From assembly GCF_000411155.1 (NCBI RefSeq), contig NZ_KE150266.1:1364001-1428000 (forward strand): a DNA stretch of 64,000 bases. Reading direction: 5' to 3'. Made by a program: the position numbers and the translations under genes. This document shows positions 3,542 to 53,064 of this stretch, piece after piece. Origin of the DNA: Gleimia europaea ACS-120-V-Col10b. Lineage in GTDB: Bacteria; Actinomycetota; Actinomycetes; Actinomycetales; Actinomycetaceae. Under the pieces are notes generated by a model. That model ran no database searches and was not told the origin of the DNA. It saw nothing but the letters and a program-made list of their open reading frames with translations. Position 1 is the first letter of the stretch. Each line of letters starts with the position of its first letter.

Positions 3542-5057
3542 GAGAGTCTCTATTCCCTTGTGTTGGCTGAAGCGTTTGGCGGTGTTACTTAGACGTGGAG
3601 TTTAGTTTGGTATTTGAGGGTGTCGAAGTTTTGTTTGTGGTGATGTTGTTGTGGTGGTGGGGTTTTGCTGTTAATGCCTGTGGTGTCACTGCAGAATAAC
3701 TATGGCCAGGACAAGGTCAATGAGATCAGTGCAAAGCTGATGGATAACCCTGAAATCGCCAAGCTTATTGGCGAGCTGTCTGCTTCTACTAGCGATGCTA
3801 GTGATTTGGTCAAGGGCTTGTTGCAGGTCTCGATTAACGCTGGTTTGCAGGCAGAGATGAATGCTCATTTGGGCTATGAGCATTCTGATCGGAAGGGTAA
3901 AGCCCAGATGGGTTCTGCCGGTGCGGTGAGCTACCGTAATGGGTCGTATACCAAAACTGTTGGTTGTGCTTATGGCATGGTGGATATCACCGTGCCTAGG
4001 GATCGTGCTGGTACGTTTCGCCCGCAGATGGTGTCTAAAGGCGCTCGCAGGCTTAGCGAGCTTGATGACATGATTATCTCGTTGTATGCCGGCGGGATGA
4101 CACTGCGTGATATCCAACACCACTTGGCCACCACACTGGGGGTGGATATGAGCCCGGACACGATCAGCACGATTACTGATGCTGTGTTAGAAGAGGTTCT
4201 GGTCTGGCAAAACCGCCAGCTAGAGCAGTTCTATCCGGTGATCTTCCTTGATGCGATGCGCGTTAAGATACGCGAGGGCAACCGTGTGGTTAACAAGGCT
4301 TGCTACATGGCTGTTGGCGTGGATATGGACGGCATCAAACACATTCTGGGATTGTGGATTGCAGGTAGTGAAGGAGCCGCGTTTTGGGCCTCTGTCTGCG
4401 CTGATTTGGCTAACCGGGGTGTGGAGGATGTGTTCATCGTCTGCTGTGATGGTCTTAAAGGCCTGCCTGAAGCGGTAGAGGCGACTTGGCCAAGCTCGAT
4501 GGTGCAAACCTGTATTGTCCACTTGATCCGAGCGGCTAACAGGTGGGTGTCCTACCAAGACCGCAAACCTGTCTCTAGCGCTTTGCGTAAGGTCTACACC
4601 GCGCCGAATGAGGAAACCGCCCGCGCGGCACTCGATGCGTTCGAAGCCTGTGAACTGGGCTGTAAGTACCCGCAGTCAGTCAAGGTATGGCGTGATGCGT
4701 GGGAGCGGTTCATACCGTTTTTACAGTTCCCGCCAGCAGCAAGACGGGTGCTCTACACCACTAACTCGATCGAGTCGCTCAACGCTGAGCTACGTAAAGC
4801 TACCCGCAACCGGGGTCAGTTCCCTAACGATACGGCAGCATTGAAAACATTGTGGCTAATGATTTGCAACATCGAAGATAAACGCGCGGCCCAACGCGCG
4901 AAGAAAGCCAAGCGCGATATTGAGTGCAACGGCTATATTGAAGGAGCGAAAGCCAACGGCTGGAAACAAGCTATCAACCAACTAGCTGTGGCATACCCAA
5001 CCGATTCTCGCAGTACTTATAAACCAAGCCCCCACACACAAACAAACAGACACTCTC
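3542..5057 (+). mobile_element. IS256-family insertion sequence
   Basis: A complete IS256 (Mutator-like) transposase is bounded by imperfect inverted ends. The left end starts GAGAGTCTCT at 3542. The right end, read from the other strand, starts GAGAGTGTCT at 5057. Over the first ~25 bases about 18 match, including a shared internal TTGTGT/TTTGTGT block. The outer limits are approximate: a further weak similarity (runs of C) extends outward on both sides. No 8-9 bp target duplication was found, which fits an old insertion or a rearranged flank. The element lies between a membrane-protein gene and a toxin-antitoxin pair and disrupts no recognisable gene. Confidence 0.65.
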
Positions 5058-5083
5058 CGAAAGTGGGGGTTTCGCATATCTAG
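3674..5083 (+). CDS. IS256-family transposase, C-terminus frameshifted
   Basis: DDE transposase of the IS256/Mutator family, catalysing cut or copy transposition of its own element. Counting from the ATG at 3674, the catalytic triad is D193 (FLDAMRV), D259 (CCDGLKG) and E367 (TNSIESLN), with the family's C/H-rich VQTCIVHLIR segment between the second D and the E. A TTG three codons upstream is an alternative start. Catalytic domains are intact. After the conserved AVAYP near base 4998 the frame departs from the family ending. One frame over the DNA reads NRFSQYL then TAA at 5020-5022, the usual terminus. The present frame instead runs ~28 residues through the right inverted repeat to 5083. 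This points to a single-base deletion near 4996-5002. Function may survive, since the change is at the extreme C-terminus. Confidence 0.9.
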   Translation: MPVVSLQNNYGQDKVNEISAKLMDNPEIAKLIGELSASTSDASDLVKGLLQVSINAGLQAEMNAHLGYEHSDRKGKAQMGSAGAVSYRNGSYTKTVGCAYGMVDITVPRDRAGTFRPQMVSKGARRLSELDDMIISLYAGGMTLRDIQHHLATTLGVDMSPDTISTITDAVLEEVLVWQNRQLEQFYPVIFLDAMRVKIREGNRVVNKACYMAVGVDMDGIKHILGLWIAGSEGAAFWASVCADLANRGVEDVFIVCCDGLKGLPEAVEATWPSSMVQTCIVHLIRAANRWVSYQDRKPVSSALRKVYTAPNEETARAALDAFEACELGCKYPQSVKVWRDAWERFIPFLQFPPAARRVLYTTNSIESLNAELRKATRNRGQFPNDTAALKTLWLMICNIEDKRAAQRAKKAKRDIECNGYIEGAKANGWKQAINQLAVAYPTDSRSTYKPSPHTQTNRHSPKVGVSHI

Positions 5084-26364: not shown

Positions 26365-27855
26365 ATGTCTACTACGACATACCAGGCAATCGCCATGATC
26401 ATCTACCTGGTAGTCATGGTCATGATTGGCCTGCTTGCCTACAACCGAACGAGTGACTTTGACGATTACATGCTCGGCGGTCGCAAGCTTGGCCCAACGG
26501 CCGCGGCTCTATCCGCCGGCGCGTCCGACATGTCCGGCTGGCTCCTCATGGGCCTTCCTGGAGCAATCTACCTAAACGGCCTCATCGAAGGGTGGATCGC
26601 AGTTGGTTTAACCATTGGCGCCTGGCTCAACTGGAAGTTCGTAGCGCCGAGATTGCGCTCCTACTCGCATGTAGCGGCTGACTCCATCACCGTCCCCTCC
26701 TTCCTCGGCCAGCGTCTGCGCGACCGTTCGCACCTTATCCGCATCGTTGCGGGCATCATTATCTTTATCTTCTTCACGTTCTACGTTTCGTCCGGCATGG
26801 TAGCTGGCGGCGCATTCTTCGAAGCGTCGTTCGGCATGAACTACCACCTTGGCCTCGTCATCGTTTCCGCAATCGTTGTGCTCTACACGCTCATCGGTGG
26901 CTTCCTTGCCGTGTCGTGGACGGACGTGGTGCAGGGCCTCATGATGGTTACCGCCCTCGCTCTCGTTCCTCTCGTTGGCATTGTGCACGTGGGCGGTTTT
27001 TCAAACATGGTCAGCGCCATTAACGAGGTAGATCCCACCATCTTCTCCCTTTCCGGTGGTGCCGCTGCGGGGGTGGCCGCGATGGGCATTATTTCTGCGC
27101 TCGCCTGGGGCCTGGGCTATTTCGGCCAGCCCCACATCATCGTGCGCTTCATGGCGCTACGATCCGCGAAGGAATCCGTTGCCGCTCGCCGCATCGGCAT
27201 CGGCTGGATGCTACTCGCGGTGATCGGAGCCGGCATGACCGCCCTCGTAGGCGTAGCCGTTTACAAGCACGACGAGGCGCAGCTCGCCAACCCAGAGTCG
27301 GTATTCATCTCACTCGGCCAGCTCCTCATGCACCCCCTCGTTGCCGGTTTCATGCTGGCCGCTATTCTCGCAGCCATCATGTCTACTATTTCCTCACAGC
27401 TACTGGTCACGTCTTCTGCAGTTGTTGAGGACATTTACCGCGCGTTCACTAGGCGCGACCTGTCGGGTAATGACGGTGTGCTCGCGGGTCGCGTCGTTGT
27501 AGCGGCCGTCGCGGTACTCGCTACCGCCCTCGCGTGGCCCCGCTCGGATACAATCCTCGCCCTCGTCGCATTCGCGTGGGCCGGCTTTGGCGCCTCTTTT
27601 GGCCCCACCGTTATCCTCTCGCTCTACTGGCGCAAGTTCACCTACCAGGGAGCTATTGCCGGCATGATCGCCGGAGCGGTTACGGTTGGTATCTGGGGCA
27701 ACGTGTCCGGTGGCGTTTTCGACCTGTACGAAATCCTGCCCGGATTCCTCCTAAACCTGTTGTTCGCAGTAGTCGTTTCTAACATGACCTACAAGCCGAA
27801 CGAAGATATCGATAAGGAGTTTGACGAGGCCCTTTGGGGAGTCTCGGCAGACTAA
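26365..27855 (+). CDS. putP: Sodium/proline symporter
   Basis: Sodium-coupled proline importer of the solute:sodium symporter family. The 496-residue protein has ~13 membrane helices and the family's N-terminal block: DFDDYMLGGRKLGPTAAALSAGASDMSGWLLMG in overlapping stretches, where the S/D residues build the sodium and proline sites. VSWTDVVQG follows near 190 and GYFGQPHIIVRFMA near 250. It has a strong ribosome site and is followed 200 bp later by putA, so uptake and breakdown of proline are encoded together. Confidence 0.93.
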   Translation: MSTTTYQAIAMIIYLVVMVMIGLLAYNRTSDFDDYMLGGRKLGPTAAALSAGASDMSGWLLMGLPGAIYLNGLIEGWIAVGLTIGAWLNWKFVAPRLRSYSHVAADSITVPSFLGQRLRDRSHLIRIVAGIIIFIFFTFYVSSGMVAGGAFFEASFGMNYHLGLVIVSAIVVLYTLIGGFLAVSWTDVVQGLMMVTALALVPLVGIVHVGGFSNMVSAINEVDPTIFSLSGGAAAGVAAMGIISALAWGLGYFGQPHIIVRFMALRSAKESVAARRIGIGWMLLAVIGAGMTALVGVAVYKHDEAQLANPESVFISLGQLLMHPLVAGFMLAAILAAIMSTISSQLLVTSSAVVEDIYRAFTRRDLSGNDGVLAGRVVVAAVAVLATALAWPRSDTILALVAFAWAGFGASFGPTVILSLYWRKFTYQGAIAGMIAGAVTVGIWGNVSGGVFDLYEILPGFLLNLLFAVVVSNMTYKPNEDIDKEFDEALWGVSAD

Positions 27856-27868
27856 CCCACATGCGTAA

Positions 27869-27897
27869 CGCAGCTCTTGCTAAGTGCAAGGGCTGCG
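27869..27897 (+). terminator. Hairpin between putP and putA
   Basis: 12-bp stem CGCAGCTCTTGC / GCAAGGGCTGCG with one G-T pair and a 5-nt loop. There is no T run. It may attenuate read-through from putP to putA or protect the putP message end. Confidence 0.45.
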
Positions 27898-28055
27898 CTG
27901 GCGTGTACGCCAGGTATCGCCCGCGAAAACGGATAAAAGTATCTGCGCAGAAGATATAAATTGCTTTACCTGTGCACCAGAAGAAATCCCCAATATAGTT
28001 AGAGCAAAGCACTTCGCATAGCCTCGCATGCGGAAGGTCAATCAAAGGAGATCAA

Positions 28056-31000
28056 ATGACCGCGCCGGAAGCAACGGACTTTTCCCAAATCGCAGAACGG
28101 GCCCTCAATCGGGCGCGCAAATGGGCAGACGAATCAACCAAGTGCCCCATTGATCCGGCCGCAAAACTCCTAGCCGACGTCCTCGAAGATGAGGGCGGCC
28201 TTGACTACACCGTCTCATTTGTTGACGGCGTCGTCAGGCCCGAAGACCAGCAGGTAGCGGCAAACCACCTAGCTGAAACCGGCAAGAAGAACCCGGATTT
28301 CCTCCCGTGGTACCTGCGCACCCCCGCCCTCATTGGCGGAACCGTTGGCAAGTTTGTTCCAGAGGTTTCCGTGCCGGCCGCGCGCCGCGTATTCCGCCAG
28401 TTGGTGGGAGACCTCGTTGTCGATGTAACTGACGACAAGCTCGGCCCCGCAATCCAACGCCTCAAGGCAGGCGGCGCCTCGCTGAACGTAAACCTGCTTG
28501 GCGAGGCCGTATTGGGCGACAAGGAAGCCGCGAAACGCCTTGCCGACACCAAACGGTTGCTCGAGCGCGATGACATCGACTACGTTTCACTAAAAGTTTC
28601 AGCCGTCACTGGCCCGCACAACCCGTGGGGTTACGACGACGTGGTAGATCACGCGTTCACCGAACTGCTGCCGTTGTACAAGTACGCGGCGGCACACCCC
28701 GCCCGCAAGTTCATCAACCTGGACATGGAAGAGTACCGCGACCTGCACCTCACCATTGACGTGTTCAAGCGCCTGCTCGACCAACCTGAAATGAAGAACT
28801 ACTCGGCTGGTATCGTGCTCCAGGCGTACCTCCCCGACACGCTCAACGCTATGAAAGACCTGCAAGAATGGGCAGCTAAGCGCGTTGCAAACGGGGGAGC
28901 CCCCATCAAAGTGCGCGTGGTGAAAGGCGCGAACCTCGCAATGGAACGCGTCGATGCCGCGATGCGCGGATGGGAATTGACCACCTGGGAATCTAAACAG
29001 GCCACCGATGCGAACTACCTGCGCATCATCAACTGGGCGATGACTCCGCAGCGCCTAAAAAACGTGAAACTCGGCGTTGCCGGCCACAACCTCTTCACCA
29101 TCGCAGCGGCGTGGGAGCTCGCTCTTGAGCGCGGCGTACAAGACGAAATCGAAATCGAAATGCTCTCGGGCATGGCCACCCAGCAGGCTTCCGCGGTTCG
29201 CGAGGACGTAGGCAACCTCCTGCTGTACGTCCCGGTTGTCAGCCCAGACGAGTACGACGTGGCAATCTCTTACCTGGTGCGCCGGTTGGAGGAAAACTCG
29301 GCGGATGAAAATTTCATGGCTTCGATCTTCGACATCGGTACCGACCCCGGCGCATTCGACAAGGAGAAGAAGCGCTTCCTGGCTGCCGTTGAGCAGATGG
29401 AGCGCGAAGGTGACCGCCGCGTGGGTGCAAACCGTCATCAGGATCGCAGCACGGAAACGGTTGAAGACATTGCGAAGCCTGTGACCACTCCCGCTGGAGG
29501 CTGGACGTTCAAGAACACGCCGGACTCCGACCCGTCGCTACCCGAAAACCTGCAGTGGGCGCGCGAAATCGCAGCCCGTATCAAGGACTCCAAGCTCGGT
29601 AACGAAACCATCGAAGCCGCAGTAATCGACAGCGAAGACGCGCTAAACGACATGCTCGAACGCGCTGTCGAAGGAGGCCGCGAATGGGCGAGGCGCAGCG
29701 CCAGGGAACGCTCCGACCTCCTCCACAAAGTTGGTGTGGAACTGGGTAAGCGCCGGGGTGAACTCATCGAGGTAGTCGCATCCGAACTGGGCAAATCGCT
29801 CCAGCAGGCCGACGTTGAAGTCTCTGAAGCCATCGACTTCGCCCACTACTACGCAGAACGCGCTCTCGACCTCGAAAACCTCCAGGGTGCTAAGTTCGAA
29901 CCGGTAGACGTCACCCTTGTGACCCCGCCGTGGAACTTCCCCATCGCTATCCCCGCGGGCGGCACGCTTGCGGCGCTCGCGGCCGGATCTGCAGCTATCT
30001 TGAAGCCGGCCTCTATTGCGCGTCGCACCGGTGCGGTGTTGGCCGAATGCATCTGGACTGCCGGCGTTCCCGACACCGCGTGCATCCTCGCCTCCGTTGG
30101 CGAACGCCAGCTGGGCCGCGAGCTAGTAACTGACAAGCGCGTTGGCCGCGTAGTTTTGACCGGTGGTGTGGAGACGGCGCAAATGTTCCGCTCTTGGGAT
30201 CCCACCTTGCGAATCATGGCGGAAACTTCGGGCAAGAACGCTATTGTGATCACTCCGTCAGCCGACCTTGACCTTGCTGTGAAGGATGTCATTGACTCCG
30301 CTTTCAGTCACGCAGGTCAGAAGTGTTCGGCAGCTTCGTATGTGATTCTCGTGGGATCAACCGGCTTCTCCAAGCGCGTGCACAATCAGCTGGTCGACGC
30401 CGCGAAGTCTCTGCACATTGGTTGGGGAGACGACCTCTCGGCAGAAATGGGGCCGCTGTCGTCCGAGCCGGGCGAGAAACTCTTCGCCGGCCTCACCACC
30501 CTTGATGAAGGTCAAAAGTGGGTGCTTAAGCCGCGTCGCCTAGACGATACAAACAGACTGTGGAGCCCCGGTGTGCGCGTGGGCGTGGAACCGGGCTCCG
30601 AGTACCACCTGGTTGAATACTTCGGCCCGATCCTTGGCGTCATGCGCGTTGACACGCTGGAAGAGGCCATCGCAGCACAGAACATGGTTGATTTTGGCCT
30701 CACGGCTGGCCTGCACTCGCTGGACCCCGATGAGATCAACTACTGGCTCAACAACGTCGAAGCCGGCAACGTGTATGTAAACCGTGGTATTACTGGCGCA
30801 ATCGTGCAACGTCAGCCGTTTGGTGGCTGGAAGCGCTCCGCAGTGGGGGAAACCACCAAGGCGGGAGGCCCAAACTACCTGTACGGATTTGGCGATATCA
30901 AACCCGTTGCGCCGGTTGTCGAAGGTGAGCGTGATTCCGCCTACCCGCCGGCTGTTGAACACGAAGCTAACGTGAAGGCCCCGCAGCTGCGCGAGCTCCT

Positions 31001-31652
31001 CGAATCTGCAAAGCGCCTGCTGTCACAAGAGGACTACGCGCGCCTTGCGATTGCCGTGGAGTCTGACCAGCACGCGATCGACACCGAGTTTGGCCGTCTT
31101 CATGACCCCTCGCAGGTTGACGTGGAACGCAACATCTTGCGTTATCTGCCCGTGGGCGCGCAGATCCGCGTCGGTAAGGACGCTTCACTTTACGAAGTAT
31201 TCCGCGCGGTCAGCGCAGGTATTGCCCTCGGTGAGATTGTGAAGGTAGATCCAGATGACGAGACCTCGTTCATCCGCGAACTTCCCGCCGGCGCCTACAC
31301 GGGCATGGATTTGACGGTGTCAACGGAAACATTCTTGCCAACCGATCCGTCGATTATGTTGGGCAACCTTGGCGTCGACATCCTCGTGGAGAACAAGCGC
31401 CAGTTTGCCGAACGCATTCAGACGGAGGTGGAAGTGGGCGAGAACCTCGACATTCGTATCCGTATGATTGGCGAAGACGGTGACGATCTGCGCCGCGCGG
31501 TAGACGGATCGATTGATGTTGCCATTTGGGATGGTCCGGTCACCACGTGCGGTCGCGTTGAAATCCTGCCGTTCGTGCGCGAGCAGGCAGTTTCTATCAC
31601 CAACCACAGGTTCGGTAACAAGACTCCGCTCTCAACCCAGGTGCTGGTTTAG
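28056..31652 (+). CDS. putA: Bifunctional proline dehydrogenase / glutamate-semialdehyde dehydrogenase
   Basis: Oxidises proline to glutamate in two steps: a flavin-dependent proline dehydrogenase domain, then an NAD-dependent aldehyde dehydrogenase. The 1198-residue protein has the PRODH barrel in roughly residues 80-470 (for example RVVKGANLAMERVDA and YLRIINWAM). The ALDH domain follows from ~530 to 970, with TPPWNFPIAIPAGG, the general base in MAETSGKNA (~723) and the nucleophile C757 in GQKCSAAS. A C-terminal ~200-residue region of unclear role follows. There is no N-terminal ribbon-helix-helix, so it is not a self-repressing trifunctional PutA. AAAGGAG precedes the ATG. Confidence 0.95.
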   Translation: MTAPEATDFSQIAERALNRARKWADESTKCPIDPAAKLLADVLEDEGGLDYTVSFVDGVVRPEDQQVAANHLAETGKKNPDFLPWYLRTPALIGGTVGKFVPEVSVPAARRVFRQLVGDLVVDVTDDKLGPAIQRLKAGGASLNVNLLGEAVLGDKEAAKRLADTKRLLERDDIDYVSLKVSAVTGPHNPWGYDDVVDHAFTELLPLYKYAAAHPARKFINLDMEEYRDLHLTIDVFKRLLDQPEMKNYSAGIVLQAYLPDTLNAMKDLQEWAAKRVANGGAPIKVRVVKGANLAMERVDAAMRGWELTTWESKQATDANYLRIINWAMTPQRLKNVKLGVAGHNLFTIAAAWELALERGVQDEIEIEMLSGMATQQASAVREDVGNLLLYVPVVSPDEYDVAISYLVRRLEENSADENFMASIFDIGTDPGAFDKEKKRFLAAVEQMEREGDRRVGANRHQDRSTETVEDIAKPVTTPAGGWTFKNTPDSDPSLPENLQWAREIAARIKDSKLGNETIEAAVIDSEDALNDMLERAVEGGREWARRSARERSDLLHKVGVELGKRRGELIEVVASELGKSLQQADVEVSEAIDFAHYYAERALDLENLQGAKFEPVDVTLVTPPWNFPIAIPAGGTLAALAAGSAAILKPASIARRTGAVLAECIWTAGVPDTACILASVGERQLGRELVTDKRVGRVVLTGGVETAQMFRSWDPTLRIMAETSGKNAIVITPSADLDLAVKDVIDSAFSHAGQKCSAASYVILVGSTGFSKRVHNQLVDAAKSLHIGWGDDLSAEMGPLSSEPGEKLFAGLTTLDEGQKWVLKPRRLDDTNRLWSPGVRVGVEPGSEYHLVEYFGPILGVMRVDTLEEAIAAQNMVDFGLTAGLHSLDPDEINYWLNNVEAGNVYVNRGITGAIVQRQPFGGWKRSAVGETTKAGGPNYLYGFGDIKPVAPVVEGERDSAYPPAVEHEANVKAPQLRELLESAKRLLSQEDYARLAIAVESDQHAIDTEFGRLHDPSQVDVERNILRYLPVGAQIRVGKDASLYEVFRAVSAGIALGEIVKVDPDDETSFIRELPAGAYTGMDLTVSTETFLPTDPSIMLGNLGVDILVENKRQFAERIQTEVEVGENLDIRIRMIGEDGDDLRRAVDGSIDVAIWDGPVTTCGRVEILPFVREQAVSITNHRFGNKTPLSTQVLV

Positions 31653-38759: not shown

Positions 38760-40120
<1,361 letters not shown>

Positions 40121-42366: not shown

Positions 42367-43629
42367 ATGAACATCTTGCTGCTTGGATCCGGCGGACGCG
42401 AACACGCACTGGCACTCGGACTTGCGCGGAACAATACCTTGTTTATTGCTCCGGGAAATCCCGGCACCAAGCTCGTTGGCACAAACATTGCCGTAAATCC
42501 CAATGACCCGGTCGAAGTCACCAAATGGGCAACCGACAACGACATTGACCTGGTGGTGATCGGTCCGGAAGCGCCCCTGGTAGCGGGAGTAGCTGACGCG
42601 GTGGCGGCGGCACGTATTCCTGTTTTTGGCCCGTCGCAAGCCGCATCCATGCTGGAAGGGTCAAAAGCTTTTGCCAAGGACGTTATGGAAAGCGCGGGTG
42701 TTGACACCGCCGCATCGGTAGCCTGCAAGACAATGAGCGAGGTTGAGGCCGCACTGGCTCGCTTCGAACCCCCGTACGTGGTGAAGAACGACGGGCTGGC
42801 GGCAGGAAAGGGGGTCATCGTCACCCGTGAGCTCGACGCCGCCCGAGCGCATGCCCGAGCCTGCCTGGAAGCTCCTGGGGGAGCGATCCTGATAGAAGAG
42901 TTCATGGACGGCCCCGAGGTGTCCCTGTTCTGCGTAACCGACGGTAAGACCGTGGTGCCACTTTTGCCCGCGCAAGATTTCAAACGTGCCCTCGACAATG
43001 ATGAAGGGTTAAACACGGGCGGAATGGGAGCTTACTGTCCACTCCCTTGGCTACCCGAAGGATTTGCCGACGAGGTAGTGGCAAAGGTAGCGCAACCGGT
43101 GGTTGATGAGATGGCTCGGCGGGGCACACCTTTTGTAGGTTTGCTGTATTGCGGCCTGGTAGTGACTAGGCGCGGCATTCGCGTCATCGAGTTCAACGCG
43201 CGTTTTGGGGATCCTGAAACGCAGGTGGTGCTATCTCTTTTGGAAACAGACCTAGCAGATTTACTTTTTGCCGCCGCAACCGGTACTTTGGCGGACTTTG
43301 CGCCGCTGCAATGGAGTGAGGCGGCGGGAGTAGGTGTAGTTGTCAGCGCCGAAAACTATCCGGCAACGCCCGTTCTAGGGGACCGGGTGGAAGGAATCGA
43401 AGAGGCTGAAACGGAGCCGAACACGCGCGTTTACATAGCGGGTGTGAGCGAGGGGGAAGCCTGTCCGGTTACTAGCGGTGGCCGCGTGCTCATGGTCAGC
43501 GCCACGGGAAAGACGCTCGCGCAGGCTCGCCAACGAGCGTATGCGGGCGTAGCGAAAATCTCGATCCGAGGATCACACCACCGCACCGACATCGCAACTC
43601 GCGCCGACCAAATCCGTATTCCCTGCTGA
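42367..43629 (+). CDS. purD: Phosphoribosylamine-glycine ligase
   Basis: Second step of de novo purine synthesis: ATP-dependent joining of phosphoribosylamine and glycine. The 420-residue ATP-grasp enzyme starts MNILLLGSGGREHALA and has GPEAPLVAGVAD (~72-83), the grasp core VVKNDGLAAGKGVIV (~138-152), DGPEVSLF, then LNTGGMGAYCP (~215) and IEFNARFGDPE (~275-285). It is followed by an unrecognised gene and purC, probably one transcription unit. Confidence 0.96.
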   Translation: MNILLLGSGGREHALALGLARNNTLFIAPGNPGTKLVGTNIAVNPNDPVEVTKWATDNDIDLVVIGPEAPLVAGVADAVAAARIPVFGPSQAASMLEGSKAFAKDVMESAGVDTAASVACKTMSEVEAALARFEPPYVVKNDGLAAGKGVIVTRELDAARAHARACLEAPGGAILIEEFMDGPEVSLFCVTDGKTVVPLLPAQDFKRALDNDEGLNTGGMGAYCPLPWLPEGFADEVVAKVAQPVVDEMARRGTPFVGLLYCGLVVTRRGIRVIEFNARFGDPETQVVLSLLETDLADLLFAAATGTLADFAPLQWSEAAGVGVVVSAENYPATPVLGDRVEGIEEAETEPNTRVYIAGVSEGEACPVTSGGRVLMVSATGKTLAQARQRAYAGVAKISIRGSHHRTDIATRADQIRIPC

Positions 43630-43688
43630 GCTTAAGCACGTGCGCGCAGGCGGTATGCTAAATGAGTTCGGGGAAAGGGAGCGCCCAG

Positions 43689-44681
43689 ATGACATGGAAT
43701 GGCTCTGGCGAGCAGAGCGAGAAGGCAGAGAATGCGTCGCGTAACTTGGATAAGTTGTTGCGGGACACGCGGCGCCGGCTTTACGCGGCGGCAGCAAGCG
43801 CGGATGCCGAGGTGTTCGGGGAGGTGCAAGCACTTCCTAACTCTGAGGTTGAAGCCATGGAACGGCGTTTGCGTGGCGGCTTGCGCTCAGCCGAGCTTGA
43901 CCACCGTCGGGCAGTGGCTCGCCTTGCCAGCCCCGAAACGCCCCTGCCGTTTGCCGATGCGGCCTCGGAATTTGAAACCTCGGGACGGATACAAGGCCGG
44001 GCTGGTACTCAGTATTCGCGCGAAGCCAGTGTGAATGAAGGGGAGCGTTCGCAGCTAATGGGAGCGAGCCTTGGCAAGCTCGGCCTTTCCGAACTGGGAT
44101 TCACAAAGGGTTTGCCGGTGGGTGAACTGCCGCGTTTCAGTGTGAAACCAGGCCAGGCGATAGTGGTGATCGGTCAAAACGGCCGGCCCGAGGACGCGTT
44201 GGATGTGGCAAGTCGCCTCGGCGTGCGTATAAATGCTCCCTATGAGATTGTTTTGGCCGGTGCGCGCACGGTTAACCCCGGAGCGGGGCCGCGCGCTCGT
44301 TCCGCCGAGGAATTCGCGCAGATTCGGGAAGAAAACCCGCATGCCGTAGTGATCCTCTCGGTGGTTAATTCGGCTGTGGAATCGCACCAGCGCAACGCGG
44401 CCCGCATTATTTCTTCCACTGATTTCGCCGCCGTGTGGGTGGTCGTGGATGCTCGCTGCGACATGGGCATCATTACGCGGGCAGTTAATGACTTGCCGGG
44501 CGAGGTGGAGGCGAGCATGATCGCCCTCACTCACGTTTGGGAGGCGGCGAAACCGGGGCAGGTGCTCGAGTGTGGAATCCCAGTGGGGCTCATTGACGGC
44601 GCGCCTGCCTCAACGCCGCTTTGGTCGCTGGTTGCAGACGACGCTTACATTCGGATGGTTTCTAGGAACAAGGAGCAGTAG
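43689..44681 (+). CDS. Conserved actinobacterial protein of unknown function within the pur cluster
   Basis: Not firmly recognised. From the ATG at 43689 (GGGAG 7 nt upstream) the protein has 330 residues. The first ~140 are charged and helical and look like a coiled or disordered region. From ~145 there is an alpha/beta domain (QAIVVIGQNGRPEDALDVA, HAVVILSVVNSAVE, AAVWVVVDARCDMG, VLECGIPVGLIDG). Its strand order recalls the SRP54/FlhF GTPase fold, but no GxxxxGK(S/T) loop is present. The 1-bp overlap with purC and position after purD suggest co-expression with purine genes. A pseudo-GTPase or scaffold role is speculation. Confidence 0.6.
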   Translation: MTWNGSGEQSEKAENASRNLDKLLRDTRRRLYAAAASADAEVFGEVQALPNSEVEAMERRLRGGLRSAELDHRRAVARLASPETPLPFADAASEFETSGRIQGRAGTQYSREASVNEGERSQLMGASLGKLGLSELGFTKGLPVGELPRFSVKPGQAIVVIGQNGRPEDALDVASRLGVRINAPYEIVLAGARTVNPGAGPRARSAEEFAQIREENPHAVVILSVVNSAVESHQRNAARIISSTDFAAVWVVVDARCDMGIITRAVNDLPGEVEASMIALTHVWEAAKPGQVLECGIPVGLIDGAPASTPLWSLVADDAYIRMVSRNKEQ

Positions 44682-45547
44682 TGCAAAACATTGCGGGGTT
44701 TAAACACGTTTCGTCGGGTAAGGTGCGTGACCTGTACGTGAGTGAGGTCAACGAGAATCAGCTGCTCGTGGTTGCCTCTGACCGCATTAGCGCCTACGAT
44801 TACGTGCTCTCCACGCCGATACCGGACAAGGGCAAGATTTTAACGCAGCTTTCCGCGTGGTGGTTTGAGCAGTTGGGCTTTGACAACCACATGATTTCGA
44901 TGGATGTTCCTGCGGAGGTTGCGGGCCGAGCGATGCTATGCGAGCGCCTCGCCATGTTCCCGGTGGAGTGCGTTGCGCGCGGGTACTTGACTGGCTCGGG
45001 CCTCGCTGAATATCGCGAAACCGGTGAAGTAACAGGGATTGCGCTTCCCGAGGGGCTTACCGAGGCTTCTAAACTACCTTCACCTATCTTCACCCCGGCT
45101 GCAAAAGCGGAGCTGGGCGAGCACGATGAGAATGTCCCGTTTGCGCGGGTGGTGGAAATGGTGGGCGAGGACGTAGCGGCGGCGCTTCGCGACGCAACGC
45201 TGATGATTTACTCGCGTGCAGCCAAGATCGCGGCGGAGCGCGGCATTATTTTGGCTGATACGAAGTTTGAGTTCGGGGCTCGAAATGACGGTTCCCTGGT
45301 GCTTGCCGATGAGGTTCTCACCCCGGATTCTTCCCGTTTTTGGCCGGCTGACCAGTGGGTGGAAGGCCGGGTAACACCGTCGTTCGATAAACAGTACGTG
45401 CGCGATTGGCTGACTTCCGAGGCTTCTGGTTGGGATCGGGCGAGCGGCGCGGAGCCTCCCGCGTTGCCAGGTGAAGTTGTGGAACGTACGCGCGAACGTT
45501 ACATTGAGGCGTTTGAAATGCTGACCGGCACGAAGTTCAACGCGTAA
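44681..45547 (+). CDS. purC: SAICAR synthetase
   Basis: Phosphoribosylaminoimidazole-succinocarboxamide synthase, joining CAIR and aspartate with ATP. The 288-residue protein has GKVRDLYVS (~13-21), DRISAYDYVLSTPIPDKG (~34-51), VECVARGYLTGSGL (~89-102), the acidic DTKFEFG (~192-198) and LADEVLTPDSSRFW (~207-220), as expected for the monofunctional enzyme. The GTG start overlaps the preceding stop by one base and follows AAGGAG. A strong terminator follows, so purSQL is transcribed separately or by read-through. Confidence 0.96.
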   Translation: MQNIAGFKHVSSGKVRDLYVSEVNENQLLVVASDRISAYDYVLSTPIPDKGKILTQLSAWWFEQLGFDNHMISMDVPAEVAGRAMLCERLAMFPVECVARGYLTGSGLAEYRETGEVTGIALPEGLTEASKLPSPIFTPAAKAELGEHDENVPFARVVEMVGEDVAAALRDATLMIYSRAAKIAAERGIILADTKFEFGARNDGSLVLADEVLTPDSSRFWPADQWVEGRVTPSFDKQYVRDWLTSEASGWDRASGAEPPALPGEVVERTRERYIEAFEMLTGTKFNA

Positions 45548-45608: not shown

Positions 45609-45750
45609 TCTAATTACAAGATTTTGCCGCAAAACTCGGCCGCTTCAAAATGGCGTCCAAATACCGCTCGGCCCCTGTTTTTCAAGTGCGGCGCTTGTAG
45701 CATTATTTTGTAAGTCAACCGCTTCGACTTACGTCGGGAAGGAAGAAGTG

Positions 45751-46008
45751 ATGGGACGCATCAAAGTCGAAATTTTGCCGAAATTCGAGATTCTAGATCG
45801 TCAGGGTAAGGCCGTGATTGCCGCGCTTACGCGCGCTAACGTCACGGCCTTTAAATCTGTCCGGCAGGGCAAGACGTTCTACCTTGAAACTGAAGGCCCT
45901 GTAACCGAGGCTGATCTGGAAGCTGCACGAGAAGTTGCAGCTTCTGTTTTGTCTAATCCGAATATAGAGGACGTCGTGAGTGTTGAGGCGTTGGAGGACG
46001 AGCGGTGA
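45751..46008 (+). CDS. purS: FGAM synthase subunit PurS
   Basis: Small subunit that joins PurQ and PurL in the multi-chain phosphoribosylformylglycinamidine synthase and is thought to carry ammonia between them. The ~85-residue protein has the usual single alpha/beta fold: RIKVEILPKFEILDRQGKA at the start, VRQGKTFYLE in the middle and the C-terminal SNPNIEDVVSVE. A GTG three bases earlier is possible; GGAAGGAAG lies upstream. Its stop overlaps the purQ start by 4 bp, so the two are translationally coupled. Confidence 0.94.
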   Translation: MGRIKVEILPKFEILDRQGKAVIAALTRANVTAFKSVRQGKTFYLETEGPVTEADLEAAREVAASVLSNPNIEDVVSVEALEDER

Positions 46009-46682
46009 AGGTTGGTGTTGTAACTTTCCCAGGCACGCTCGACTCGGCGGCTGCAACTCGCGCCGTGGAATTGGCGGGCGGGGAGCCGGTAGAACTGTGG
46101 CATGAAGACAGCGACTTGCACGGTGCGGATGCCGTGATTTTGCCGGGTGGCGCAACGTATGGAAACTATGTTCGCCCCGGTGGTCTCGCCGCACTATCGC
46201 CCATCATGGCCACTATTGCGGCGGCCGCGAAGCAGGGGCTGCCCGTCATCGGGATTGGAAATGGGTTCCAAATTCTTTGCGAAGCCGGCATTTTGCCAGG
46301 CGGTTTTGTGAACAACGAGGACGGCCGCTACATCTGTCGTGACGAGTCATTCAAGGTAAGTGCAGATTCTGCTTGGACGTCTAAGTACGAGCAGGGCGAG
46401 GAAATCACGCTTCCGCTTCGCACGGCGACAGCTCTCTACGTTGCTTCTGACGAGGTTTTGGAACAGCTGGAAGAGAAGAACTTGGTTGTGCTCCGTTTTG
46501 TCCACAACCCCACTGGTTCTGCCGCTGACATTGCGGGTATTCGTAGCGAGGCGGGGAACGTGGTTGGTGTGATTGCCAGCCCCGAGAATGCGGTTGAGGC
46601 CGGTTTTGGTCCAGAAACCGCTACTGGGCCGGGCGCTGGCACGGATGGGTTGCGGATTTTCACTTCGGTTATCGCGAAGTAG
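46005..46682 (+). CDS. purQ: PurQ homologue lacking the glutaminase catalytic Cys and His
   Basis: By position and overall similarity this is the glutamine amidotransferase subunit of FGAM synthase, expected to release ammonia from glutamine. The 225-residue protein aligns end to end with normal PurQ from memory: VVTFPGTLD, LWHEDSDLHGADAVILPGG, GNGFQILCEAGILPGG, FICRD-like YICRDESFKV, AWTSKYE and the closing TDGLRIFTSV. However, the nucleophile motif GxCNGFQ reads GIGNGFQ: residue 85 is glycine (codon GGA at 46257-46259). The catalytic histidine of MPHPE is S192 in IASPEN (codon AGC at 46578-46580). Only E194 of the triad remains. The oxyanion segment GGFSYGDYLRxGA is GGATYGNYVRPGG. The frame is intact with coupled purS, so it looks like a maintained, non-catalytic subunit. 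Confidence 0.9.
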   Translation: MKVGVVTFPGTLDSAAATRAVELAGGEPVELWHEDSDLHGADAVILPGGATYGNYVRPGGLAALSPIMATIAAAAKQGLPVIGIGNGFQILCEAGILPGGFVNNEDGRYICRDESFKVSADSAWTSKYEQGEEITLPLRTATALYVASDEVLEQLEEKNLVVLRFVHNPTGSAADIAGIRSEAGNVVGVIASPENAVEAGFGPETATGPGAGTDGLRIFTSVIAK

Positions 46683-47003
46683 CCCAATCTCAAAGAGTTA
46701 CACGCGGGGGATTCAAGTCGGGAAGATTTTGCTTCTGCGGGCTGTGAAAAACTCGCTTTCTTAACAACTCCAAAACCAGGTTATCCACAAGCTCGTGGAA
46801 ACCTTGAAAACTCAATACACAGGTGTGGACAACTTGGTGGATAACCTGTGGATCAACGCCGTGAACGCATTTGAACACGCAGAAAAATCGCCAGGAAATA
46901 ACAGCAAACACGTTAAACAGTGGTGGATATCACGAGGCGTGTTTGGTTTGTTCACACGTGTAATAGGCAAGACGGAATGGCAATGGTGAACAAGGAAGAG
47001 AAT
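46683..47003. other. purQ-purL gap with a cluster of DnaA-box-like sites
   Basis: 321 bases with no plausible gene. They hold TTATCCACA (46781-46789, plus), and on the minus strand TTGTCCACA (46824-46832), TTATCCACC (46836-46844) and TGATCCACA (46847-46855). Two are exact DnaA boxes and two have one mismatch, all within 75 bases. GGTTATCCAC at 46779 and its complement at 46837-46846 form an inverted repeat. Flanks are A/T-rich. No dnaA or dnaN gene is nearby. Confidence 0.6.
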
Positions 47004-49457
47004 ATGGGCGCGCAGACCATCTCTAACGTCATTTTTGAAAACCCTCGCCCAAGTGGGGTGCCCGACACGGTGGAGAACGCGAAAGCGACTCCGAATGAGG
47101 AAATGCCGTGGCACTCGCTTGGTCTTAAAGAAGATGAGTACAACAAGATCGTCGAGTTGCTTGGGCGCCGCCCCACGATCGCGGAGCTTTCCATGTATTC
47201 GGTCATGTGGTCCGAACACTGCTCCTACAAGTCCTCGAAGAAACATTTGAAAGAGCAGTTTGGGTCTAAGACCACCGAGGAGATGGGTAAGAACCTCCTG
47301 GTTGGGATTGGACAGAACGCCGGCGTTGTCGATGTTGGCGACGGTTGGGCTGTCACATTCAAGGTTGAGTCCCACAACCACCCGTCCTATGTTGAGCCCT
47401 ACGAGGGCGCGGCAACGGGCATCGGTGGCTGTGTTCGAGACATTATTTCGATGGGTGCTCGCCCGATCGCGGTGATGGACGGCCTTAACGTTGGTGATCC
47501 CAACCATCCCGACACTGCTCGCGTGGTGCGCGGCGCGGTTGATGGCCTGGCTGGCTACGGCAACGTCTTGGGTGTGCCCGCCATCGGTGGTGAGACCACG
47601 TTTGACCCGTCCTACCAGGGCAATCCGCTGGTAAACGCCGTTTGTGCGGGTGCGGTGCGCCACGAGCATGTGCGTTTGGCCGATGCGAAGACGCCGGGCA
47701 ACATGGTGGTTCTCTTTGGCGCCCGCACGGGTGGTGACGGCATTGGCGGTGCCTCGATCCTCGCCTCTGAATCGTTTGAAGACGACGAGTCGATTGCCCG
47801 GCCCACCGTGCAAGTTGGCGACCCGTACATGGAAAAGCAGATCATCGAGTGCCTCATGGAACTGTTTGACGAGGGCGTGATTGAAGCTATCCAGGATCTT
47901 GGTGCTGCGGGAGTTTCCTGCGCCACCTCGGAACTGTCTTCAAATGGGGGGACGGGTATGCACATTCATCTGGAGAACGTGCTGCTGCGTGACCCCACGT
48001 TGACGGCCGGTGAAATCCTCATGTCGGAATCGCAAGAGCGCATGATGGCAACTGTTGCTCCAGAAAATATGGATGAGTTTTGGCGCATTGCAACCAAGTG
48101 GGGTGTGGAAGGCTCGGTAATTGGTGAGGTCACTGACACGGGCCGCCTCATCATCGACCACTTCGGACACCGCATTGTCGATGTGGATCCGAAGACGGTT
48201 GCCCACGACAGCCCGGTTTACGACCGTCCATACGCCAGGCCCAAGTGGCAGGACGCGCTGCAGACGGACACGTCTGAAAAGCTGGCTCGCCCGGCCTCGG
48301 GTGAGGAAATCGGCGAGCAAATCAAGACGATCATCACCTCTGCCAATGGTGCTTCCAAGAAGTGGATGACCGACCAGTTTGACCACTACACGCTGGGTAA
48401 CACCGCGATGACCGCGCCCGATGACGCGGGCGTTGTGCGTGTAGACGCAAGTACGGATCGCGGTATCGCAATGGCGATCGACTCCAACGGTTGGTTTACT
48501 AAGCTTGATCCGTACGAGGGAGCGAAGCTCGCGCTGGCGGCGGCCTACCGCAACGTGGCGGCCGTGGGAGCGAATCCAATCGCAATCTCGGACGGCCTTA
48601 ACTTCGGTAATCCGGAGGATCCGGACGCGATGTGGCAACTCGTGCAGGCCATGACCGGCCTTGCCGATGGGTGTAAGCAGATGGGCATTCCGGTGACCGG
48701 CGGTAACGTGTCGCTCTACAACTCCTCTGGCACGCAGATGAGCCAACCCGACTCGTCAATCAACCCCACGCCGATGGTTGTCATGCTGGGCGTAATCGAC
48801 GATGTGAAGCGCGCTCGCCCGTCCGGCTGGTTTGAGCAGGGCATGGCAATCTACTTGCTGGGCGACACTGCGGAAGAGTTGGACGCTTCGGCGTGGGCAC
48901 GCGACGTGCACGGCCATTTCGGCGGCCTTCCCCCCAAGGTGGACTTGGACGCAGAAATGGCGCTTGGCCGCGTCATCCACGCCCTCGTGAACACTGATGG
49001 CCCGGATGGTCAGCCGCTGATTCACGCCGCACACGACGTGGCAGAAGGAGGCCTTGCGCAGGCGCTTGTGGAGATGGCAACGCGTCGCGGGATCGGTGCC
49101 AACATCGACCTGTCCGCGTATGTCAAGGCGCAGAAGATCAGCGACTTCGTGGCGCTGTTCTCCGAATCCACTGGCCGCATGGTGGTTGCACTTCCCGAGG
49201 GCGCAGTTCCAGCTCTCACCGCCGCTGCGCAAGCCGAGGGAGTCAGCTGCACACGCATCGGCCTTTCGGGAGGCACGTTGCTTACCATCTCGGGCTTTGA
49301 CCAGCTGGGGGATGCGGGCGGTTTTGATGCACAGGTGCTTGCTGAGGTTTCGGGCGAGAGTATTCCCGAGGGCGCCTGCCAGTCCCGTCCACTCGTGTTC
49401 CGGGTGCGTGAGCTTGCCGAGCAGATGGGCGCGGTGATCCCGGGTCTATTCGCCTAA
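47004..49457 (+). CDS. purL: FGAM synthase subunit PurL (small type)
   Basis: Synthase subunit that uses ATP and ammonia to convert FGAR to FGAM. From the ATG at 47004 (AAGGAAG upstream) the protein has ~817 residues, somewhat longer than the ~750 usual for the small PurL that works with separate PurQ and PurS. It lacks the fused glutaminase of the large form. Motifs include MYSVMWSEHCSYKSSK (~64-79), FKVESHNHPSYVEPYEGAATG, GARPIAVMD, the P-loop-like GARTGGDGIGGAS, GDPYMEKQ and HDVAEGGLAQAL. Upstream in-frame starts exist at 46920, 46977 and 46983 but are less supported. Confidence 0.95.
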   Translation: MGAQTISNVIFENPRPSGVPDTVENAKATPNEEMPWHSLGLKEDEYNKIVELLGRRPTIAELSMYSVMWSEHCSYKSSKKHLKEQFGSKTTEEMGKNLLVGIGQNAGVVDVGDGWAVTFKVESHNHPSYVEPYEGAATGIGGCVRDIISMGARPIAVMDGLNVGDPNHPDTARVVRGAVDGLAGYGNVLGVPAIGGETTFDPSYQGNPLVNAVCAGAVRHEHVRLADAKTPGNMVVLFGARTGGDGIGGASILASESFEDDESIARPTVQVGDPYMEKQIIECLMELFDEGVIEAIQDLGAAGVSCATSELSSNGGTGMHIHLENVLLRDPTLTAGEILMSESQERMMATVAPENMDEFWRIATKWGVEGSVIGEVTDTGRLIIDHFGHRIVDVDPKTVAHDSPVYDRPYARPKWQDALQTDTSEKLARPASGEEIGEQIKTIITSANGASKKWMTDQFDHYTLGNTAMTAPDDAGVVRVDASTDRGIAMAIDSNGWFTKLDPYEGAKLALAAAYRNVAAVGANPIAISDGLNFGNPEDPDAMWQLVQAMTGLADGCKQMGIPVTGGNVSLYNSSGTQMSQPDSSINPTPMVVMLGVIDDVKRARPSGWFEQGMAIYLLGDTAEELDASAWARDVHGHFGGLPPKVDLDAEMALGRVIHALVNTDGPDGQPLIHAAHDVAEGGLAQALVEMATRRGIGANIDLSAYVKAQKISDFVALFSESTGRMVVALPEGAVPALTAAAQAEGVSCTRIGLSGGTLLTISGFDQLGDAGGFDAQVLAEVSGESIPEGACQSRPLVFRVRELAEQMGAVIPGLFA

Positions 49458-51630: not shown

Positions 51631-53064
<1,434 letters not shown>

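Follow-up and report, generated by a model that had tools for sequence, protein, structure and literature searches.

Analysis of the purine genes of Gleimia europaea ACS-120-V-Col10b revealed a PurQ-family subunit in which the nucleophilic cysteine and the catalytic histidine are both replaced. Loss of these two residues is a trait of a clade of five Actinomycetaceae genomes: Gleimia europaea (G001), Actinomyces urinae (G002), G115, G117 and G118. The first-pass annotation of this DNA had described the loss in PurQ, and this part of its account held; the change is wider, however, as GuaA and PurF are altered too and glutamine synthetase is missing in four of the five genomes. Overall, our analysis suggests that this PurQ is likely a dead structural or regulatory subunit of an FGAM synthase that would work on free ammonia, within a lineage-wide switch of PurF, PurQ and GuaA after which the synthetase would have been deleted at least twice.

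The window, i.e. the whole stretch of 64,000 nucleotides that was analysed, carries the following features.

38822..40120, plus strand: purA-like frame, adenylosuccinate synthase; named from reading the translation, same place in the clade loci
42367..43629, plus strand: purD; TIGR00877 449 bits, cut-off 288
44681..45547, plus strand: purC, control gene of the column comparison, 0 of 112 invariant columns replaced in the clade
45748..46008, plus strand: purS, overlapping purQ by 4 bases (purS stop over purQ start); Pfam PurS 57.1 bits, cut-off 22.2
46005..46682, plus strand: purQ, PurQ-family putative pseudo-glutaminase subunit, 225 amino acids from a GTG start; NF002957 226.9 bits, fold matched by the model
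46137..46175, plus strand: altered oxyanion-hole loop of PurQ, ILPGGATYGNYVR; from alignment, model pLDDT below 50 at residues 51-56
46257..46259, plus strand: purQ codon 85, gga, Gly replacing the nucleophile Cys in the motif GIGNGFQ; from residue reading and alignment with relatives
46578..46580, plus strand: purQ codon 192, agc, Ser replacing the catalytic His in the motif IASPEN; from residue reading and alignment with relatives
47004..49457, plus strand: purL, small FGAM synthase, 817 amino acids from the ATG at 47004; NF002290 927.4 bits, cut-off 648, scored from an earlier GTG at 46920
47388..47882, plus strand: PurL residues 129-293, holding 23 of 33 clade-specific replacements; from column comparison
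51730..53064, plus strand: gdhA, glutamate dehydrogenase; Pfam ELFV_dehydrog 311 bits

The order purS-purQ-purL is that of a PurSQL-type FGAM synthase. PurS falls below the NCBIfam PurS cut-offs, and PurL, which was aligned to solved PurL, possesses the synthetase motifs MWSEHC and ESHNHPS. A frame of 339 amino acids between purD and purC (43662-44681) matched nothing in Pfam at E<=0.01 or in NCBIfam at E<=0.001; its place is conserved in the clade and in G121, at 56-91% identity. This frame was rejected as a replacement because it matches no family and also occurs in G121, whose PurQ is intact. A Mutator-family transposase frame is found elsewhere in the window (3665-5083).

The purQ frame is uninterrupted, with 225 codons and no internal stop, and its product passes both PurQ equivalog cut-offs of NCBIfam (NF002957, 226.9 against 212; TIGR01737, 193.8 against 177.8). 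Residues 4-204 align to the solved PurQ of T. maritima, in which the cysteine and histidine are present. Structure prediction fed by 19 sequences gave a class I amidotransferase fold with a mean pLDDT of 88.8, and the closest solved structure in the PDB is T. maritima PurQ (3d54_D, TM 0.84/0.89). Instead of the Cys-His-Glu triad of class I amidotransferases, the window PurQ has Gly85, Ser192 and Glu194. The oxyanion segment reads LPGGATYGNYVR in the window PurQ against LPGGFSYGDYLR in intact relatives, and Phe50 in this loop is replaced by alanine in all six clade sequences. Both codons in the intact frame, the altered oxyanion segment and the coupling to purS through overlapping stop and start had been claimed in the first-pass annotation, and all were found as described. 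From these residues we infer that the window PurQ would be without glutaminase activity. Hydrolysis of glutamine in another way, with a replacement nucleophile, appears very improbable: the triad glutamate position does remain acidic (Glu or Asp) in every clade member, but nucleophile, base and oxyanion loop are altered together, glycine is incapable of acting as nucleophile, and the same double loss is found in a different protein, GuaA.

Glycine at position 85 and serine at position 192 also occur in the nearest named genomes found, Gleimia europaea UMB0652 (L001, 91-92% identity) and Actinomyces urinae Marseille-P2225 (L002, 89-90%), and the same residues appear in database proteins at 91-99% identity. 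Both catalytic residues are likewise gone in PurQ relatives at 62-69% identity. A sequencing or assembly error, for which no supporting point was found, is thus scarcely credible, since the same residues are present in independent assemblies, two of them from named isolates, and both are lost in the more distant relatives. The first-pass annotation had argued against a single sequencing error, and these sequences bear it out.

A census of 121 PurQ sequences (the window protein and the best 120 of 7058 matches) found the cysteine, histidine and glutamate in 108; the cysteine and histidine are both missing in 11, the cysteine alone is replaced in P0010 and the histidine alone in P0102. P0010, P0102 and P0023, the last with both residues lost, are PurQ proteins at 50-55% identity and represent possible further losses. 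Among 213 Actinomycetaceae genomes, a PurQ domain was detected in 189 and none, at the threshold used, in 24. The cysteine position was read in 159 of the 189, and cysteine is kept in 153 of these. Glycine at the cysteine together with serine at the histidine occurs in five (G001, G002, G115, G117 and G118). The remaining genome, G198, has alanine at the cysteine (GIANGFQ) with the histidine kept, in a large fused PurL (L128), and is probably a case separate from the clade. An apparent dead PurQ motif in G130 was a match in an unrelated frame, and this genome was counted as intact.

A single PurQ domain above the cut-off is present in every one of the five clade genomes, and the domain search found no large PurL in any of them. 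The sole other match at E<=1 in the clade, a candidate second PurQ in G115, was rejected (23 positions, E 0.127). The first-pass annotation had proposed a comparison with close relatives, and the loss is indeed conserved in a clade; in the five clade genomes neither a second purQ nor a large PurL was found. Its proposal that PurQ is probably a structural subunit, with FGAM synthase using free ammonia or borrowing a glutaminase, fits these findings.

Analysis of other glutamine amidotransferases revealed parallel changes. GuaA scores low in the clade in a Pfam GATase search of nine genomes. In this search GuaA was found in four clade genomes and lacks both catalytic residues in all four, with the motifs GISYGFQ/QWRPEE in G115, GISTGFQ/QWMPEI in G118 and AISSGFH/EWLPEI in G001 and G002, compared with GICYGFQ/QWHPE in four comparators. 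The search gave no GuaA match in G117, a genome with no GATase matches at all, whose assembly may be incomplete. The guaA of G118 is used with caution, as its contig is less like G115 than other G118 contigs are and may be mis-binned. Among 128 GuaA sequences (eight loci and the best 120 database matches), 119 are intact and nine lack cysteine and histidine; the nine comprise the four clade loci and five of the seven best database matches, the other two of the seven being intact.

PurF is altered in a different manner. Its catalytic cysteine is kept in all 129 sequences examined, the best 120 database matches included. In nine of the 129, the aspartic acid that corresponds to B. subtilis residue 127 in the alignment, which we take to bind the amino group of glutamine, is replaced by glycine, and the histidine before the conserved NGN is replaced by asparagine. 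The nine come from the five clade genomes and the top four database matches; the other 120 are intact at both positions. None of the five clade genomes has a GATase_6 match other than PurF. A dead glutaminase part together with a conserved acceptor part is found for PurQ/PurL and for GuaA, and in PurF the loss is confined to residues of the glutamine pocket.

In GuaA and PurF, conservation is lower in the GATase domain than in the acceptor domain, both in the clade and in the comparators, so the faster change in these domains is not evidence by itself. Columns invariant in the comparators and replaced in the clade number 6 of 98 in the GATase domain of GuaA, among them the catalytic cysteine and histidine, and 4 of 215 in the rest of the protein; the corresponding counts for PurF are 11 of 124 and 9 of 244.

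Within the clade, HisH was detected in G118 and G115 only. It is intact in G118, which keeps glutamine synthetase; in G115, which has no synthetase, asparagine replaces the cysteine and the histidine is kept (L087). CTP synthase (PF06418) was not found in 12 of the 13 genomes searched (G001, G002, G115, G117, G118, G114, G116, G119, G121, G194, G195 and G198), and CTP in these 12 may come from imported cytidine. Absence of PyrG was rejected as part of the trait because the 12 include comparators.

A separate glutaminase could in principle supply ammonia to PurSQL, GuaA and PurF, and one candidate is a stand-alone class I amidotransferase of the NF005743 type. G001, G002, G115 and G118 have its cysteine and QFHPE motifs intact, the G001 protein scores above the NF005743 cut-off (292.1 bits against 264), and in G001 and G002 it is the only intact class I amidotransferase under the Pfam models used. 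Such an arrangement is nevertheless rather improbable. Similar stand-alone amidotransferases, judged by eye, occur in G121, G193 and G197, genomes with intact GuaA or PurQ, so the protein does not look clade-specific. Three different enzymes would all have to depend on its ammonia. Furthermore, glutamine synthetase is missing from four of the five clade genomes, and a GlsA-type glutaminase was found in none of the five. The alterations of GuaA and PurF, combined with synthetase loss in four of five genomes, favour use of free ammonia rather than the borrowing of a glutaminase.

Glutamate dehydrogenase could either fix ammonia in glutamate or release it, and the first-pass annotation had pointed to the proximity of gdhA as a clue. 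This clue did not survive comparison, since gdhA lies similarly close to purL in G114, G116, G119 and G121, all with intact PurQ. The window also contains putP (sodium/proline symporter) followed by a PutA-like frame that falls below the PutA cut-offs (26365-31652); together these could convert proline to glutamate, a possible source of ammonia through GdhA.

A glutamine synthetase match was obtained in 205 of the 213 family genomes (in G140 only at E 2.8e-10). The eight genomes without a match are G001, G002, G115, G117, G189, G194, G195 and G198. In G118 two glnA genes are kept in spite of the dead PurQ. In G118, G114 and G121, one glnA adjoins fadD in the vicinity of uvrA, with ogt on either side of it; the second glnA, together with glnE, is enclosed by an SPFH gene and a phosphoglycerate-mutase-like gene. 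The glnA2-glnE pair is missing in G001, G002, G117 and G115, where 31 to 133 bases separate the SPFH match from the mutase match. At the other site glnA1 is missing in G001, G002 and G117, with fadD and ogt about 180-205 bases apart; the G117 contig ends soon after this site and the G115 contig falls short of it. The missing synthetase in these four genomes is not an assembly gap. An adjoining amino-acid ABC transporter is kept in all four, its nearest family being GlnQ at 336 bits, below the cut-off of 379.

A five-gene tree, with some genes missing, placed G115 and G118 as sisters and joined G117 to the window, G001 and G002 (support 1.0). This topology implies at least two losses of the synthetase later than the PurQ change. 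A regain in G118 would be the exception, but is unlikely because of its shared gene order. As the tree places the window beside G117, G001 and G002, we infer that its source genome lacks glutamine synthetase too. Among the 159 genomes read, a dead PurQ domain is present in 5 of 5 genomes without synthetase, these being every synthetase-lacking genome with a PurQ domain, and in 1 of 154 with it (Fisher p 8e-9), a value that ignores kinship, as four of the five represent one clade and G198 is not on the tree. G115, G117, G118 and G198 are assemblies of unstated completeness.

Class I amidotransferases were also compared between the four other genomes without synthetase and four genomes with synthetase. 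CTP synthase with glycine for the catalytic cysteine (GIGLGAQ) was found in G189, which lacks glutamine synthetase, and in G186, which has one copy of it (L163, L164); the G186 protein has arginine for the histidine as well. The GMP synthetase of G186 (L181) has kept the synthetase part but lacks most of the GATase domain. G195, without synthetase, has a HisH (L178) with glycine for cysteine and the histidine kept, and in G198 the missing synthetase is paired with the Cys to Ala change of the fused PurL. Counter-cases are the intact GuaA of G194, also without synthetase, and the intact HisH of G198. Other class I proteins that keep the cysteine occur in G189, in G194 and in G195, and the proteins seen in G193, G197 and G199 keep it too. 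No GuaA match was found in G189, G195 and G198. The pairing of a missing synthetase with a dead amidotransferase is a tendency and not a rule; the PurL of G198, the CTP synthases of G186 and G189, the GMP synthetase of G186 and the HisH of G195 may partly follow the same path independently.

Comparison of substitution rates gave dN/dS values of 0.089-0.161 for purQ within the clade (six pairs). For intact purQ from G114, G116 and G119, two pairs gave 0.045 and 0.056 and the third was saturated. The values for purL are 0.021-0.133 in the clade against 0.025-0.037 in the controls. Constraint on purQ is weaker than in intact relatives yet strong, as would be expected of a non-catalytic subunit; with both intact values lower than those of the clade, a degree of decay may nonetheless have occurred.

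PurL itself has changed. Ten intact relatives share 426 invariant columns, and at 33 of these every one of the six clade sequences carries a replacement; their clustering in residues 129-293 has a hypergeometric p of 3e-6, for an interval picked after viewing the data. Two other three-genome groups taken as foreground gave 7 of 439 and 5 of 441 replaced columns in PurL, and 2 of 115 and 1 of 112 in PurQ. Clade-replaced invariant columns in the other proteins, for genome sets that differ between proteins, number 17 of 106 in PurQ, 3 of 39 in PurS, 0 of 112 in PurC, 1 of 238 in GdhA, 4 of 178 in PurD and 12 of 449 in PckG. With the same four comparators, the counts are 56 of 605 for PurL against 5 of 344 for GdhA (GdhA from four clade members).

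These results bear on the alternative that purines are salvaged and the pathway is decaying, with the amidotransferase parts drifting to pseudogenes. The higher dN/dS of clade purQ and the 24 family genomes in which no PurQ domain was detected are in line with decay. We consider decay improbable, however, because the frames are open, every pair gives a dN/dS far below 1, all five clade genomes keep purD, purC, purS, purL and purF, and the PurL changes fall at particular invariant positions and are clustered rather than spread.

The preferred reading, dead PurQ within a free-ammonia purine pathway, can be laid out as follows. An ammonia-rich habitat would have made the glutaminase halves dispensable, and the acceptor halves would take free ammonia directly. 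PurQ would be retained because PurL depends on it, either to assemble or to give the ammonia path its shape. With glutamine needed for little but protein synthesis, the synthetase would become dispensable and glutamine would be imported. PurF, PurSQL and GuaA would thus use NH3 drawn from the medium or from amino-acid breakdown, and the glutamine of proteins would be imported. We consider it moderately likely that this is a lineage without glutamine as a metabolic nitrogen donor, in which all purine nitrogen otherwise derived from glutamine comes from free ammonia and glutamine serves for protein only. That reading includes an order of events, in which the PurF, PurQ and GuaA glutaminases would have been disabled first, alongside matching PurL changes, and the synthetase deleted afterwards. 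Points against the preferred reading are the synthetase kept in G118, the intact GuaA of G194 and the PurF cysteine present in every sequence examined.

Purine synthesis is usually described as glutamine-dependent, and a channelled glutaminase lets the enzymes work at low ammonia. The clade would constitute a natural experiment on which parts of PurQ, GuaA and PurF matter beyond glutamine hydrolysis. If the preferred reading is true, it would show how acceptor enzymes adapt to free ammonia and in which order glutaminases and synthetase are lost. Family-based names would then mislead for these organisms, the opportunist Gleimia europaea included; P0122, a dead GuaA, is annotated in a source as a glutamine-hydrolyzing GMP synthase.

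Amidotransferase relics that work on ammonia are already known singly (vertebrate carbamoyl phosphate synthetase I and, as proposed in the available part of PMC3261824, archaeal PurF'). What is unusual here is the breadth, with three purine steps and glutamine synthetase together. Our literature search, with subscription papers and preprints outside it, returned no report of a three-step purine amidotransferase loss combined with synthetase loss, and the genome announcement of Gleimia europaea (PMC12697155) mentions neither dead amidotransferases nor synthetase loss.

According to the available part of PMC3261824, archaeal PurF' is without the catalytic cysteine and was suggested to be ammonia-dependent, E. 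coli PurF without its cysteine still uses ammonia, and the PurQ cysteine is fully conserved in the archaea studied. PurF' resembles the clade enzymes in being related to a purine amidotransferase and in its proposed use of ammonia; in the clade, by contrast, PurQ, GuaA and PurF are affected together and the PurF cysteine is kept. For the GMP synthetase of Plasmodium falciparum, the accessible portions of the sources report that the Cys to Ala change abolished glutamine activity and kept ammonia activity, with a Km for NH4Cl of 8 versus 19 mM (PMC4673825), and that the C89A enzyme keeps ammonia-dependent synthesis with a lower ammonium Km (PMC4673825, PMC9312489). The cysteine is gone from GMP synthetase in both cases, C89A being engineered and the clade losses natural. 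The available part of PMC10526850 gives NH4+ Km or K0.5 values of 26-174 mM for the GMP synthetases of M. tuberculosis, E. coli and human; ammonia is thus a poor substrate of ordinary GMP synthetases, which counts against the ammonia explanation. Endomicrobiellum endosymbionts are without GlnA, and supply of glutamine by the host was deduced for them (PMC11257099, in part). They likewise represent a host-associated lineage that lost glutamine synthetase; dead amidotransferases are a feature of the clade and receive no mention in the accessible part of that paper.

The T. maritima PurSQL complex (3d54) is similar to the clade system in its separate PurS, PurQ and PurL, the fold of PurQ and the synthetase motifs of PurL. 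It differs in that the clade PurQ is without the cysteine, the histidine and the usual oxyanion loop, and that the clade PurL is altered at the 33 positions invariant in ten relatives. Vertebrate carbamoyl phosphate synthetase I retains a dead glutaminase part and uses free ammonia. A dead glutaminase part is retained in the clade as well, where use of free ammonia is suggested by sequence. The vertebrate case concerns one enzyme in one pathway, whereas the clade combines changes in three purine enzymes with loss of glutamine synthetase.
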